Source of the DNA: Planktothrix paucivesiculata PCC 9631 | Lineage (GTDB): Bacteria; Cyanobacteriota; Cyanobacteriia; Cyanobacteriales; Microcoleaceae | Assembly (NCBI RefSeq): GCF_900009265.2 | Contig: NZ_LR735002.1 | Location: 1 to 64,000, forward strand | Direction: 5' to 3' | Length of the DNA stretch: 64,000 bases | In this document: positions 50,694 through 60,774 of the stretch, piece by piece | How the letters are laid out: every line of letters starts with the position of its first letter | How positions within the stretch are numbered: position 1 is the stretch's first letter | The notes under the pieces: generated by a model | The model's input: only the letters and a program-made list of their open reading frames with translations | The model's database searches: none | What the model was told of the DNA's origin: nothing | Made by a program: the position numbers and the translations under genes

Positions 50694-53600
50694 ATGGCAA
50701 GTCTAACCCATAACGAACCCACTTTTTTACTCCCTGACTTAATTGAAATTCAACGGTCAAGTTTCCGTTGGTTTTTAGAAGCCGGGTTGATTGAAGAATT
50801 AGAAAGTTTTTCCCCCATTACCGACTATACAGGTAAACTAGAACTGCATTTTTTAGCCAAAGACTATAAACTGAAACGTCCTAAATATGACGTTGACGAA
50901 GCCAAACGGCGGGATAGTACCTACGCGGTTCAAATGTACGTTCCGACTCGTTTAATTAATAAAGAAACTGGAGAAATTAAAGAACAAGAAGTCTTTATTG
51001 GGGACTTACCCCTAATGACAGAACGGGGAACTTTTATTATCAATGGGGCTGAACGAGTTATCGTTAACCAAATTGTGAGAAGTCCCGGGGTTTATTATAA
51101 ATCTGAAATTGATAAAAACGGCCGACGGACATATAGCGCGTCCCTAATTCCCAACCGAGGCGCCTGGTTAAAATTTGAAACCGATAAAAATGACTTAGTG
51201 TGGGTGAGAATTGATAAAACCCGCAAACTATCGGCCCAGGTCTTATTAAAAGCCTTGGGACTCACCAATAACGAAATTTTTGATGCCCTGCGTCACCCCG
51301 AATACTTTGAAAAAACCATTGAACGGGAAGGGGAATTTAGCGAAGATGACGCCTTAATGGAACTGTACCGCAAACTCCGTCCCGGGGAACCCCCAACGGT
51401 GGCCGGTGGAGAACAGTTGCTTAATAACCGCTTCTTCGATGCCAAACGCTATGATTTGGGCCGGGTGGGACGCTATAAACTGAATAAAAAACTGCGGCTG
51501 ACTATTCCCGATACTACCCGGGTGTTAACGTCCGTTGATATTCTCTCGGCGATTGATTATTTAATTAACCTAGAATTTGATATCGGTGAAACCGATGATA
51601 TTGACCACTTAGGAAATCGTCGGGTACGGTCAGTCGGAGAACTGCTGCAAAACCAAATTCGGGTCGGGTTAAACCGCCTAGAAAGAATTATCCGAGAACG
51701 GATGACCGTAAGTGACGCCGATGCCTTAACTCCTGCTTCTCTGGTCAACCCCAAACCCCTAGTCGCTGCCATTAAAGAATTCTTCGGTAGTTCCCAATTA
51801 TCGCAGTTTATGGATCAGACAAATCCCCTAGCGGAACTGACCCACAAACGCCGTTTATCTGCCCTTGGCCCCGGGGGACTAACCCGAGAACGGGCTGGAT
51901 TTGCTGTCCGAGATATTCACCCCAGCCACTACGGTCGGATTTGTCCGATTGAAACCCCAGAGGGGCCAAACGCCGGATTAATTGGGTCTTTGGCAACCTT
52001 AGCCCGGGTGAACCCCTACGGATTTATTGCCACCCCCTACAATAAAGTCGAAAACGGCAAAGTCCGCCGGGATTTGCCTGCGGTGTACATGACCGCCGAC
52101 GAAGAAGACGACCTGCGGGTCGCCCCAGGGGATATTAGAACCGATGCCGAGGGGACGATTTTAGGGGAGATTGTTCCGGTGCGGTATCGCCAGGAGTTCA
52201 CTACCACAACTCCGATGCAGGTGGACTATGCCGCCGTATCTCCGGTACAGATTGTCTCGGTTGCCACCTCCTTGATTCCCTTCTTGGAACATGACGACGC
52301 GAACCGGGCCTTGATGGGGTCTAATATGCAACGGCAAGCCGTCCCCCTGCTGCGTCCACAACGGCCCTTAGTGGGAACCGGACTAGAAGCCCAAGCCGCC
52401 CGGGATAGTGGGATGGTGATTGTCTCCCGTACCGATGGGGAAGTTAGCTATATTGATGGGTCTTGTATCCGGGTTATGGATACCACGGGCAAAGAACATG
52501 AATATGAGTTACAAAAATATCAACGTTCTAACCAAGATACTTGTTTAAACCAGCGTCCCTTGGTTTATGAAGGAGATCAGGTGGTGGCGGGTCAGGTATT
52601 AGCCGATGGTTCCTCCACCGAAGGGGCTGAACTGGCTTTAGGTCATAATATTCTAGTGACTTATATGCCCTGGGAGGGATATAACTACGAAGACGCGATT
52701 TTAATTAGTGAGCGTTTAGTCCAAGAGGATATTTACACCTCCATCCACGTTGAAAAATACGAAATTGAAGCCCGACAAACCAAACTCGGCCCGGAAGAAA
52801 TTACCCGCGAAATTCCCAACGTCGGGGAAGATTCCCTACGACAACTCGATGGAAACGGGATTATCCGAGTCGGGGCTTGGGTGGAATCCGGGGATATTTT
52901 AGTCGGGAAAGTCACCCCCAAAGGGGAATCCGACCAACCCCCGGAAGAAAAATTACTCCGGGCAATTTTTGGAGAAAAAGCCCGGGACGTGCGGGATAAC
53001 TCCCTGCGGGTTCCCAACGGAGAAAAAGGTCGGGTTGTTGATGTGCGCGTCTTTACCCGGGAACAGGGGGATGAGTTACCGCCTGGGGCGAATATGGTCG
53101 TGCGGGTTTATGTGGCGCAAAAACGCAAAATCCAAGTCGGGGACAAAATGGCCGGACGCCATGGAAATAAAGGGATTGTGTCTCGGATTCTGCCGATTGA
53201 AGATATGCCCTACTTGCCCGATGGTCGGGCTGTGGATATTGTCTTGAATCCCTTGGGTGTACCCAGTCGGATGAACGTGGGCCAAATCTTTGAATGTTTA
53301 TTAGGGTGGGCGGGTCAAAACCTGAAAAAACGGTTCAAAGTGGTTCCCTTTGATGAAATGCACGGGCCAGAAATGTCTCGGGAAACCGTTCATGGGAAGT
53401 TGAGAGAAGCCCGGGATAAAACCAAGAAAGATTGGTTATTTAACGAAAACTATCCTGGGAAAAGCATTGTTTATGACGGGCGTACCGGAGAACCCTTTGA
53501 CCAACCCGTCACCGTGGGAATTGCCTATATGTTGAAACTGGTTCACTTGGTTGATGATAAGATTCACGCCCGGTCTACTGGCCCCTACTCTTTGGTGACT

Positions 53601-54008
53601 CAACAACCCTTGGGAGGAAAAGCCCAACAGGGGGGACAACGATTTGGAGAAATGGAGGTTTGGGCCTTGGAAGCCTTCGGGGCGGCCTATACCTTGCAGG
53701 AGTTGTTAACGGTGAAATCCGACGATATGCAGGGACGAAACGAAGCCCTCAACGCCATTGTCAAGGGTAAAACCATCCCCCGTCCTGGGACACCGGAATC
53801 CTTCAAGGTGTTAATGCGGGAGTTGCAGTCGTTGTGTTTGGATATTGCGGTACATAAAGTGGAAACCACCGACGAAGGTGGAAGTCGAGATGTGGAAGTA
53901 GACCTGATGGCTGATATCCCAGCCACCCGGATGACCTACACTTCTAATAACTTTGCCCCCGCTAAACCTACTTATGATTTAAGTAGTTCAGTGGAAGAAG
54001 ACGAATAA
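50694..54008 (+). CDS. rpoB: RNA polymerase subunit beta
   Basis: A complete 1104-residue beta subunit, normal for cyanobacteria. Recognised blocks: [22 protein letters not shown] by its GAERVIVNQ core, [20 protein letters not shown] in the rifampicin region, [23 protein letters not shown], and [13 protein letters not shown]. With the products of rpoA, rpoC1 and rpoC2 it forms the core enzyme. The ATG directly abuts a short tandem repeat array and lacks a visible Shine-Dalgarno sequence. Confidence 0.98.
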
Positions 54009-56274: not shown

Positions 56275-59200
56275 ATGGCTAACAAAAAAATCTTTCGGAA
56301 TCAAGTTATTGATAAAGGACAATTAAAAAAAATCATGTCCTGGGCTTTTATGAATTATGGTACGGCTCGTACCGCCCAAATTGCCGATGAATTAAAGGAA
56401 TTAGGGTTTACCTATGCCACAAAAGCCGGGGTTTCTATTAGTGTGGATGACTTACAGATTCCGCCTTCCAAAAAAGCTTTATTAGAAGAAGCCGAAGAAG
56501 AAATTAGAAATACAGAACGCCGTTATATTAAAGGAGAAATTACCGAAGTTGAACGGTTCCAAAAAGTTATTGATACTTGGAATGGCACATCTGAAGCCCT
56601 AAAAGATCGGGTGGTGGAAAACTTTAAAGCCAGTAACCCTCTGAACTCGGTTTATATGATGGCCTTCTCCGGTGCCCGGGGGAATATTTCCCAAGTCCGT
56701 CAGCTAGTCGGGATGCGGGGACTAATGGCTGACCCCCAAGGGGAGATTATCGATTTACCGATTAAAACCAACTTCCGGGAAGGCTTAACCGTTACTGAGT
56801 ATATTATTTCCTCATACGGGGCGCGGAAAGGTCTAGTAGATACGGCCCTCCGAACCGCCGACTCTGGGTATTTAACCCGCCGTTTAGTCGATGTTTCCCA
56901 GGATGTGATCCTGCGGGAAATTGACTGCGGAACCAGCAAGGGGATTTGGACTCGCAGTATGACCGATGGGGAACGGGTGTTAATTCCGATTAAAGATCGG
57001 TTAATGGGCCGGGTGTTAGGGGAAGATGTGCGCCACCCCCAAACCGGAGAAATTGTCACCTATCAGTCGGAACAGGCGGTTAAAAATCACTCCGTGAGTG
57101 AGGAGTTAGCCCTAGCCATTCAGGAAGCCGGGGTTGAGGAAGTGCTATTGCGATCGCCTCTGACCTGCGAAGCCAACCGTTCCGTCTGTCAACATTGCTA
57201 TGGCTGGAGTTTAGCCCATGGTCATAACGTCAACCTGGGGGAAGCGGTGGGAATTATTGCCGCCCAGAGTATCGGCGAACCCGGAACCCAGTTAACCATG
57301 CGGACATTCCACACCGGAGGGGTTTTCACCGCCGAAGCCGCGGGGATGATCCGAGCCGGAATTGATGGGGTGGTCAAGTTCTCTAAATCCCTGCGAGTCC
57401 GTCCCTTCCGTACCCGTCACGGAGATGATGCGTTCATCGTGGAAAACACGGGCCAAATTATTGTCGAGGGTGGCGGAAAAAATACCGAAAAACACAGTAT
57501 CGCCCAAGGGACAACCATTATTGTCCAAGAAGGCCAACGAGTTAAAGCTAACGAAATCCTAGCGGAAATTGCCGCCGGGGGTCGGACAGCCCGGAAAACC
57601 ACGGAAAAAGCCACCAAGGACGTGGCCACGGACTTAGCTGGGGAAGTCAAATTTGCGGATGTGGTTCCCGAAGAAAAAACCGACCGTCAAGGGAACATGA
57701 CCCGCATCGCCCAACGGGGGGGTCTGATTTGGGTGCTCGGAGGAGAAGTATATAACCTACCCCCGGCGGCCGAACCCTTGGTCAAAAATGGAGATACGGT
57801 TACACCCGGAAGCGTTCTGGCCCAAACTAAACTGGTTTCCGAGCATGGGGGATTAGTCCGAATTCGGGAACAGTTTGCTGAGGGTGAGCTACCTCGGGAA
57901 ATTGAGATTATCACCGCTTCGGTATTGCTGGATCAAGCCTTAGTGCGGTTAATACAGATGCAGGGACGGGAACAACATATTATTGAAACCAATAGTAACC
58001 ACCGCTTCATGCTCAAAGTCAGTCCCGGTTCCAAAGTGGAAAACCACGATGTGATTGCGGAACTGATGGATGATAGCTACCGGACAAAAACCGGGGGGAT
58101 CATTAAATACGCCGGGGTAGAGGTCGCCAAACGGGGTAAGGGAAAACAGGGTTATGAAGTTACCCAGGGAGGGACTTTATTATGGATTCCCGAAGAATGC
58201 CATGAGGTGAATAAGGATATTTCCCTACTGTTAACCGAGGACGGACAGTATGTGGAAGCGGGGATGGAAGTGGTTAAGGATATCTTCTGTCAGAGTAATG
58301 GGGTAATTGAAGTTACTCAGAAAAATGATATTCTGCGAGAAATCGTAATCAAACCCGGAGAACTGCATCTGGTGGATGATCCGGAAATGGTGATGGCGAT
58401 TGATGGCCAAATTGTCAATCCCGGCCAAGAGGTGATCCCCGGGATTATCTCGGACAACTTGCGTTATGTGGAATATGTAGAAACCCCCGAAGGCCCAGCC
58501 TTGCTATTGCGTCCCGTGGTGGAGTTTAGCGTTCCCGAAAACCCCACCGTTCCTTCTCAAGAATCCCTGAACGAATCCATTGCCCTGCGAGCGGTACAAC
58601 GCTTGACATACAAGGATGGGGAACGGGTACGGTCGGTGGAAGGGGTGGAACTACTCCGCACCCAATTAGTGATTAGTATTGGCACAGAAGCCCCGCAATT
58701 GGCCGCCGATATCGAGTTACTACCCGATGAAACTGACCCCGATGTGATGAAATTACAGTTGGTCATCCTAGAATCCTTAGTAATTCGTCGGGATGTGATC
58801 GCTGATGCCACCCAGGGTAGTACCCGCACCCGGTTACTGGTCAAGGATGGAGATGAAATTGAGAAAGGCGCCGTTGTCACTCGCACAGAAATCATGTGTA
58901 AGGAAGACGGGATTATTCAAGGGATTCGCTCTGGGTCGGAAATTCTCCGCCGTTGTCTGGTGGTACGCGAGAATGATGAGGTGAACTTAGAAGTCACAAC
59001 CATTCCCTTAGTTAATGAAGGAGATTTGCTTGTTGAAGGTCAACTTATTGCAAATGGAGTAACAGCAACACAATCAGGACAAGTTATTCATGTATCGAGT
59101 CATGTCAAATTAGACTCTGATTGGAAAAAGAAACTTGATAAAGTCATTGACTTTCTTGGAGATCTTTTAGCCAATGTGATTATCGCTAAACTGGGCGCAA

Positions 59201-60774
59201 CTGCCATAACTGCACTTCCTGTTCCCACTTTAGTAAGTACAGTTACCCCGACAATCATCGGCGCGCTACCTGATGTTTTCAAAAACGAATATATTGAGCG
59301 CTCAATCAGTGTTGCAGTGGAAGCTATTGTTAGCATCATGTCCAAAATCGGTATAGCCTCTCTATCAGGGTATTCTAAAAGTTCCCTTAAAGAGAAAGTT
59401 ATAATTCCAGCGTTGCAACAGGTTGCTCAATCAATAGCGTTTGTTTTGGGTGTCCATGGATATCACAGCTTGATCGAAATTATTCTTGAAATCAACAAAA
59501 CTGTCGATAATGCGTCTTCTGGTAAGCTAAACGTAACAGATTTAAGCACAATTGTTCCGAATTTAGCCACGCTTTTGGCTGCCTTTGTAACAGGTAAGTG
59601 GACAAAACCGATAACAATCAAACTGCGCTTAGGTCGGCCCTATCGGGTGTCTCCGGGTGCGATTCTCCACGTTAAAGACGGAGACTTGGTACAACGGGGG
59701 GATAACCTGGTGTTGCTGGTGTTTGAACGGGCCAAAACCGGAGATATTATTCAAGGGTTGCCCCGAATTGAAGAATTGTTAGAAGCCCGCAAACCCAAAG
59801 AAGCCTGCGTTTTAGCCCGACGTCCTGGAACTGCCCAGGTGACGATGGATGATGACGTCACCGAACTGCGGGTGATTGAAAATGATGGCACGGTTACGGA
59901 TTATCCCCTGGGTTCGGGTCAATCCCCAATTGTCTCCGATGGTCACAAAGTAGAAGCCGGACAAACCCTGACCGATGGCCCTAGTAATCCCCATGAAATC
60001 CTCGAAGTGTTCTATGACCACTATCTGGAACAGGGAGAAGGAATGTATGATGCGGCTTTGGGGAGTTTCCGCCAGTGTCAAGCGTTCTTGGTTAACGAGG
60101 TGCAGTCGGTGTATCAGTCCCAGGGAATTGATATTTCCGATAAGCATATTGAGGTGATTGTCCGTCAGATGACCTCTAAAGTTCGGATTGATGATGGGGG
60201 CGATACGACTATGTTACCTGGGGAATTGGTGGAACTGCGCCAGGTGGAACAGGTGAATGATGCCATGTCGATTACCGGAAGCGCGCCCGCCAAATATACC
60301 CCCGTGTTATTGGGGATTACTAAAGCCTCCTTAAATACCGATAGCTTTATCTCGGCGGCCAGTTTCCAAGAAACTACCCGGGTCTTGACTGAAGCGGCGA
60401 TTGAGGGCAAATCCGACTGGTTACGCGGTCTCAAGGAAAACGTGATTATCGGACGTCTGATTCCGGCGGGAACGGGATTTAATGCCTATGAGGAATCCGG
60501 GAATGCCGACTATGGCTTCGATAACGGCACGTTGTATTTGGATGAGGAAGATGAAGACGAACTGCGGGATGTGGTCTTAGATGACAAAACTGCCCGGGTT
60601 TATAACAGTTTTGAACGGGAATTACCCCCGGAACCCAAAGCAGCGCCGTCTAGTTTAGGAAAAGGTAGCAAAGTCCTATTTGAAGATAGTGAAGATGATC
60701 CTTTATTATCGGCTATCCTCGATGACGAGTTAATTGATGACGAATACGAGGACGACGAGGACGAAGACGAATAA
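56275..60774 (+). CDS. rpoC2: RNA polymerase subunit beta' (C-terminal half) with an extra internal domain
   Basis: A 1499-residue protein, against about 1300 in the cyanobacterial RpoC2 proteins I know. Recognised blocks: [17 protein letters not shown] by its start, the trigger-loop/bridge region [20 protein letters not shown] by its [10 protein letters not shown] core, zinc ligands in [22 protein letters not shown], the SI3 sandwich-barrel region (about 345-1120), and [19 protein letters not shown]. About 170 residues at 945-1115 have no counterpart in the family. They are hydrophobic and lie inside SI3 near its end. The reading frame is intact on both sides. The acidic C-terminus (DEDEDE) is normal. 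Confidence 0.95.
59110..59620 (+). other. in-frame insertion inside rpoC2 encoding a hydrophobic helical segment (residues about 945-1115)
   Basis: Family RpoC2 goes almost directly from the SGQV strand to [13 protein letters not shown]. Here they are separated by about 170 residues rich in Ile, Val, Leu and Ala, including [30 protein letters not shown] and [16 protein letters not shown]. Hand counts of G+C in 60-base lines are 34 at 58921, 22 at 59041, 27 at 59161, 20 at 59461 and 34 at 59641, so it is distinctly AT-richer than its host gene. No intein splice residues are present. I do not recognise the domain. Confidence 0.85.

Follow-up and report, generated by a model that had tools for sequence, protein, structure and literature searches.

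A predicted helical insertion domain in RpoC2 of Planktothrix paucivesiculata PCC 9631 and its probable relatives in RpoB of other cyanobacteria

RNA polymerase core subunits are regarded as being among the most conservative genes. A survey of their insertion domains recognizes BEAN for the beta subunit and HABAS for beta', both with distributions following the bacterial tree; BEAN is built of two antiparallel brackets, each of one helix and two strands, and the cyanobacterial beta subunit is placed in type 1, which has no lineage-specific insertions (PMC11515920). SI3 of the cyanobacterial subunit RpoC2 is treated as nested barrels in a paper on domain insertions (PMC13114784), and its fin comprises residues 884-973 and 424-478 according to a structural study (PMC10120043). 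Here we describe an rpoC2 gene with an extra domain within SI3, found in the first 64,000 nucleotides of contig NZ_LR735002.1 of Planktothrix paucivesiculata PCC 9631 (this whole stretch is called the window below). We consider it probable that this gene carries a domain from a seemingly undescribed family of helical insertion domains of about 170-230 amino acids, which occupy either this RpoC2 hairpin or a loop of RpoB in a few scattered cyanobacteria, and that the ancestor of the window acquired it by recombination. No publication describing such a helical domain was found by title or abstract, in a literature coverage that falls short of most subscription papers.

The gene (56275..60774, forward strand) encodes the RNA polymerase beta'2 subunit of 1499 amino acids; its open reading frame matches the NCBIfam models TIGR02388 and NF002724 (E=0) in two stretches, and cyanobacterial RpoC2 chains of the PDB. 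On 8h3v_B the match likewise consists of two blocks, residues 6-942 on 2-945 and residues 1111-1498 on 960-1345, while residues 939 and 1112 correspond to positions 942 and 945 of 8syi_Z. On 8gzg_Z, presumably the Synechocystis chain, the gap falls between positions 934 and 942, within the SI3 fin. A tight turn of the last SI3 barrel (SBHM-8, in the fin), in the beta-hairpin that ends SI3, therefore holds about 170 additional residues, which the solved cyanobacterial RpoC2 chains leave unmatched. These residues form an inserted domain, residues 943-1112 (59101..59610, forward strand), which is predicted to be all-helical. The sequence-only reading of this DNA had proposed an extra domain in the SI3 region, rich in Ile, Val, Leu and Ala, and both points hold: the insert has a grand average of hydropathy (GRAVY) of 0.55, with I, L, V, A, F and M making up 47% of its residues, and it contains no Cys. 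The protein length had been given correctly too, only the norm of about 1300 residues was slightly low, as eight of the nine other genomes of the genus have open rpoC2 frames of 1343-1373 codons, all without the insert.

Next, we examined the junctions of the inserted DNA. Over its first 2702 and last 1143 bases, the window rpoC2 is 93-96% identical to those of PCC 11201, bin CG2_30_40_61 and P. rubescens, and a fourth relative shows about 86% identity to the same flanks. Identity to all four (edges taken from blastn coordinates) stops at 58976 and returns at 59632. Between these edges lies a replaced tract (58977..59631, forward strand), 655 bp long instead of 187 bp, in frame and 156 codons longer. 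G+C content in 120-base windows drops from about 0.49-0.56 on both sides to about 0.36-0.45 in the tract. At third codon positions (GC3) it amounts to 0.20 in 58978-59100 and 0.35 in the insert, against 0.51 in each flank. Composition and identity change at the same place, 58976/58977, and the right edge is at 59631/59632; the earlier remark that the drop begins ahead of the insert, at about 59000, was accurate. The left part of the tract (58977..59100, forward strand) is a foreign-type SBHM segment (EVNLEV...SGQVIHVSS), and the SBHM re-entry strand (ITIKLRL; 59611..59631, forward strand) stands immediately left of the right identity edge.

The closest counterpart of this arrangement is found in Planktothrix UBA8402, whose rpoC2 is 89% identical to that of the window over 2199 aligning 5' bases and 93% over the 3' part. 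Its insert occupies the same site and shares 37% identity with the window insert (E=4e-31 for the pair). There, a cassette of the same kind precedes a complete native barrel segment, with 910 bp between the anchors. For the SBHM piece of the window tract, the alignment score is 131 with its equivalent next to the UBA8402 insert, at most 98 with the other RpoC2 loci compared and 75-76 with normal Planktothrix copies, all among the 18 best matches; the barrel piece of the third carrier described below lies outside the stretch scored. The right junction of the window resembles the end of the native barrel copy in UBA8402, and a string near it (..AATCAAACT.CGCTTA) is common to the window and UBA8402 and not shared by the four relatives. 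Given that the tract begins ahead of the domain, with an SBHM piece closest to that of UBA8402, it seems to be DNA from another rpoC2, apparently of another cyanobacterium, that already bore the domain. Recombination with such a donor had been suggested at the outset and is well supported by these comparisons. The ancestor of the window would have obtained the domain through homologous recombination, perhaps by way of an intermediate like UBA8402, with the cassette beside a native barrel copy that was later lost. The start of the UBA8402 rpoC2 contig (about 1-630, first 200 or so residues) resembles RpoC of another phylum; this contig is probably chimeric there, away from the insert.

The distribution of the insert in RpoC2 is narrow. 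Among ten species-level Planktothrix genomes, the window included, UBA8402 is the only other one with the insert, beside its duplicated barrel segment. In the whole order, a query with the RpoC2 tail matched 377 of 388 genomes, 20 of them with more than one match, and the helical insert was present in three of the 377: the window, UBA8402 and G027, a genome from another genus of the same family, whose insert is a distant third member. In this count 357 single-match genomes were taken by match number, 15 of the 17 other split cases were printed, and G334 and G217 were judged by coordinates. By this count, most RpoC2 proteins of the order lack the segment, so that the survey did not refute the earlier proposal. 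The 17 other splits comprise translated short repeats, additional copies of the barrel, interrupted frames, contig breaks (close to the site in G044) and splits away from the site. Because split RpoC2 proteins show repeats and extra barrel copies, the hairpin is one that tolerates insertions and varies in length within the order; the helical domain is rare there. Translated short repeats occupy the same hairpin at loci L076, L078 and L079. Extra barrel repeats occupy it at L074 and L075 (genomes G186 and G171), in open frames of 1404 and 1489 codons. In G370 (L079/L089) the SI3 tail of rpoC2 is tandem-duplicated and the reading is split into two open frames of 1052 and 655 codons, which may stem from a genuine rearrangement or from a fault in the assembly.

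When the three RpoC2 inserts were combined into a profile, it weakly matched RpoB of two further genomes, G095 and G117 (E 0.002). RpoB of the window (50694-54008) has a short loop at the counterpart site, residues about 595-602 (52476..52499, forward strand), as aligned to 8h3v_A, which presumably comes from Nostoc PCC 7120. A query with this empty site matched 373 of 388 genomes, 87 of them in two places. We looked up 79 of these 87 and additionally G363, whose RpoB ends at a contig edge at the insert site; G095 and G117, also among the 87, were known already from the profile, and G143, G209, G229, G234, G351 and G373 were left out. Ten regions were fetched, and most cases were judged from frame length and from second places among the matches listed. 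Inserts of about 200 residues at the same loop were found in G087, G307, G334 and G354, besides G095 and G117, and the other RpoB loops fetched were far shorter. The six RpoB carriers belong to three families other than that of the window. In total, eight distinct inserts (window, UBA8402, G027, G087, G095/G117, G307, G334 and G354) are thus distributed over nine carrier genomes: two of ten in the genus of the window, one of three sampled in group g9, two of three in g45, three of three in g122 and one in g38.

Some other peculiarities of RpoB were seen. G018 (L136), a single-contig genome and one of the 87, has rpoB at two distant places without a split, one of them in a 1960-codon frame that runs far upstream through an unrelated-looking segment. 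Within the genus of the window, the RpoB loop query aligned in one piece in G000, G003, G004, G006 and G007 and in split form in G001, G002, G008 and G009; in G009 and G008 (L101 and L104), the two that were read, the loop is longer by about 40 residues. The RpoC2 hairpin of L076 and the RpoB loop of 8h3v_A (about 611-633) both hold translated short repeats of the TDNGQLT type, which gives the impression that repeat DNA can land in either loop.

Are the inserts of the two subunits related? Comparison of the RpoB set (five sequences) with the RpoC2 set (three) by hhalign gave a probability of 90% and E 1.5e-6 for a single comparison, with reversed controls of 0.30 and 0.35%. Smith-Waterman z values were 7.6 for window and G095, 6.9 for window and G087, 9.5 for G087 and G095, and 13.9 for G087 and G307; in these four pairs none of 500 shuffles scored as high, and reversed sequences reached 41-52 versus 76-113. 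The UBA8402 insert likewise passed the shuffle and reversed-sequence controls in pairs with G095 and G087, and G027 paired with UBA8402 at z 7.0 (0 of 500 shuffles as high). The pairs that link the two subunits are therefore related beyond mere composition. Homology of the window insert to that of UBA8402 is strong, and its homology to the RpoB inserts is moderate.

Members of the family were sought in overlapping sets of 61, 388, 388, 79 and 143 genomes. A profile of all eight inserts, run over 79 chosen genomes, gave one strong match per carrier (nine of nine), in rpoB or rpoC2, with a second match in G027 at E 0.056; in a class sample of 143 genomes there were four matches at E 0.02-0.09, and the window was the only strong one. 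All strong matches fall in rpoB or rpoC2, and no copy outside RNA polymerase was found with these profiles, which miss distant members. Apart from the two in RpoB, the 34 weaker matches (23 + 11 loci) were translated in their own frames and read by eye as other proteins or frames with stops; none of these loci shows rpoB, rpoC2 or such an insert (for the latter 11, the locus midpoint served as the place of the match). Plasmid and phage collections left the insert unmatched, and nothing was confirmed in viral contigs searched with the three-insert alignment (A1) or in a scan of genome contigs with the window insert alone. Pfam (four of the eight inserts), NCBIfam (that of the window), PHROGs and PADLOC (all eight) and PDB (eight-insert profile) yielded scattered weak matches, the best E per library being 0.002-0.025, which we treat as chance.

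Coding changes show signs of purifying selection on the RpoB version of the domain in g122, the only genus that allowed this measurement. Between three g122 species, the RpoB insert has a nonsynonymous divergence (dN) of 0.20-0.40 at a nearly saturated synonymous divergence (dS) of about 2.4-2.5, giving dN/dS of about 0.08-0.16 for the three pairs. The RpoB flanks show dN 0.02-0.05, dS 1.5 and 2.3 and dN/dS 0.013-0.018 in two pairs, the third being beyond estimate. The dN of this insert is about 7-10 times that of its host RpoB, and the insert appears constrained, the ratios being rough at such dS.

Several results weigh against a single family of helical domains. AlphaFold2 models of the window insert are all-alpha and of low confidence, with a mean pLDDT (the program's own confidence score) of 47 from one sequence and 57.3 from two; Foldseek gave 168 matches against the PDB at E<=10 and none at E<=0.001. 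By hhalign, the g122 set reached a probability of only 0.27% with the RpoC2 set, G087 alone 7.8% with that set (reversed 2.6-2.9%), G087 15% with G095, and G095 1.1% with g122. G307 scored z 1.0 and 1.6 with two RpoC2 inserts, a level that 91 and 41 of 500 shuffles reached, and G027 scored z 3.1 with the window (4 of 500). Homology is uneven across the family, and in view of these failed direct pairs the link between RpoB and RpoC2 inserts runs by way of G087 and G095. The profile A1 missed the G087 and g122 inserts in the search of 388 genomes; having missed real members, it leaves occurrence in RNA polymerase alone unproven, and copies in other proteins are possible. Finally, the inserts of the window and UBA8402 differ by dN 0.63 and dS 1.43, a fast-evolving pair that would suit a tolerated passenger.

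Such a passenger would be harmless filler without selected function, lodged in a hairpin that takes almost any in-frame DNA. The translated repeats and barrel copies at the very same RpoC2 hairpin, the similar repeat in the RpoB loop of 8h3v_A and the divergence just mentioned all favour it. On the other hand, the three g122 RpoB inserts keep their frame with far fewer amino-acid than silent changes, albeit at dS near saturation, and one and the same domain in two subunits is hardly expected from random filler; we regard this explanation as somewhat unlikely. A membrane or lipid anchor drawing RNA polymerase to the membrane, a possibility raised with the original proposal, would agree with the high aliphatic content, GRAVY of 0.55 (window) and 0.85 (UBA8402) and best 19-residue Kyte-Doolittle means of 1.73 and 2.02. 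Yet none of the 154 segments of the window insert is transmembrane-like, the whole family has 0 to 2 such segments per insert, the helical hydrophobic moment exceeds the shuffle mean in eight of eight inserts, and GRAVY falls to 0.03 among RpoB members. A transmembrane reading was discarded on the lack of such segments. The moments and near-absent transmembrane-like segments fit a soluble bundle better than a membrane anchor, and membrane binding as a general property is not supported. RNA polymerase moreover colocalises with DNA in Synechococcus elongatus, a species that may or may not carry the insert (PMC13378304). Altogether, an anchor seems improbable.

The patchy presence in essential genes, in two host genes, and a G+C content of 0.37-0.41 in all eight inserts could also be expected of a self-spreading element aimed at essential polymerase genes, either intein-like or a mobile repeat that codes for protein. 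This we consider very unlikely, as each carrier genome has one strong match, the prediction is all-alpha, and no intein family or Hint splicing domain appears among the Pfam matches of the four inserts scanned, on which ground an intein reading was rejected. Nor were direct or inverted repeats of at least 10 bases reported in 58900-59720, where terminal repeats or a target duplication of a transposon or miniature inverted-repeat element would lie, and no repeat frames the insert in UBA8402 and three other cases. Sharp identity edges, an insert known here from assembled sequence alone and a related UBA8402 contig that looks chimeric at its start might raise suspicion of an assembly chimera or contamination. 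Against it, the frame is kept, both junctions lie inside one gene of a single 197,763-bp contig, a second genome of the genus has a related insert at the same site, and the 3579-bp RpoB-insert loci of G095 and G117 are the same except for 2 bases, G117 being a single contig; the odds of such an artefact appear minute.

Returning to a helical insertion domain acquired by recombination, we can propose its most likely role only tentatively. The domain would fold into an independent bundle of helices at the surface of the polymerase, leaving catalysis untouched, and would give individual strains a surface of their own, for docking a regulator or for shielding against a phage protein. Since the SI3 fin touches the rim helices and the beta lobe loop (PMC10120043), the domain could meet factors near the secondary channel. 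A domain seemingly moving between species by recombination, and in two subunits, would show that core polymerase can gain accessory modules fast. Close Planktothrix genomes with and without it make its effect on transcription directly testable.

How does this domain compare with described insertions? Like the cyanobacterial SI3/HABAS insertions made of SBHM, it is lineage-specific and resides in the same subunit, the new insert lying within the last SI3 barrel (PMC11515920, PMC10802570 and PMC10120043). In contrast to SI3, which consists of beta barrel-sandwich repeats, insertions of a kind that follows the tree according to the survey (PMC11515920), the new domain is predicted to be all-alpha and its carriers are patchy; both low-confidence models lack the four-stranded barrel-sandwich sheet of HABAS, and SBHM is confined to the flanking segment. 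With BEAN of bacterial beta subunits it shares recurrence at separate sites, but the helices and strands of the two BEAN brackets (PMC11515920) would set BEAN apart from the window member, for which the low-confidence model predicts no strands. In-frame, sporadic insertion into polymerase genes resembles that of inteins (PMC1635734); unlike inteins, the domain has no intein family match (Pfam, four inserts), lacks Cys in the window and sits in a length-variable loop. It is conceivable, and we put it forward with reserve, that it represents a third class of insertion domains in RNA polymerase, next to BEAN and HABAS: all-helical, limited to RNA polymerase, passed horizontally among cyanobacteria into two permissive loops and selected as a private docking or shielding surface, for example against takeover of transcription by phages.

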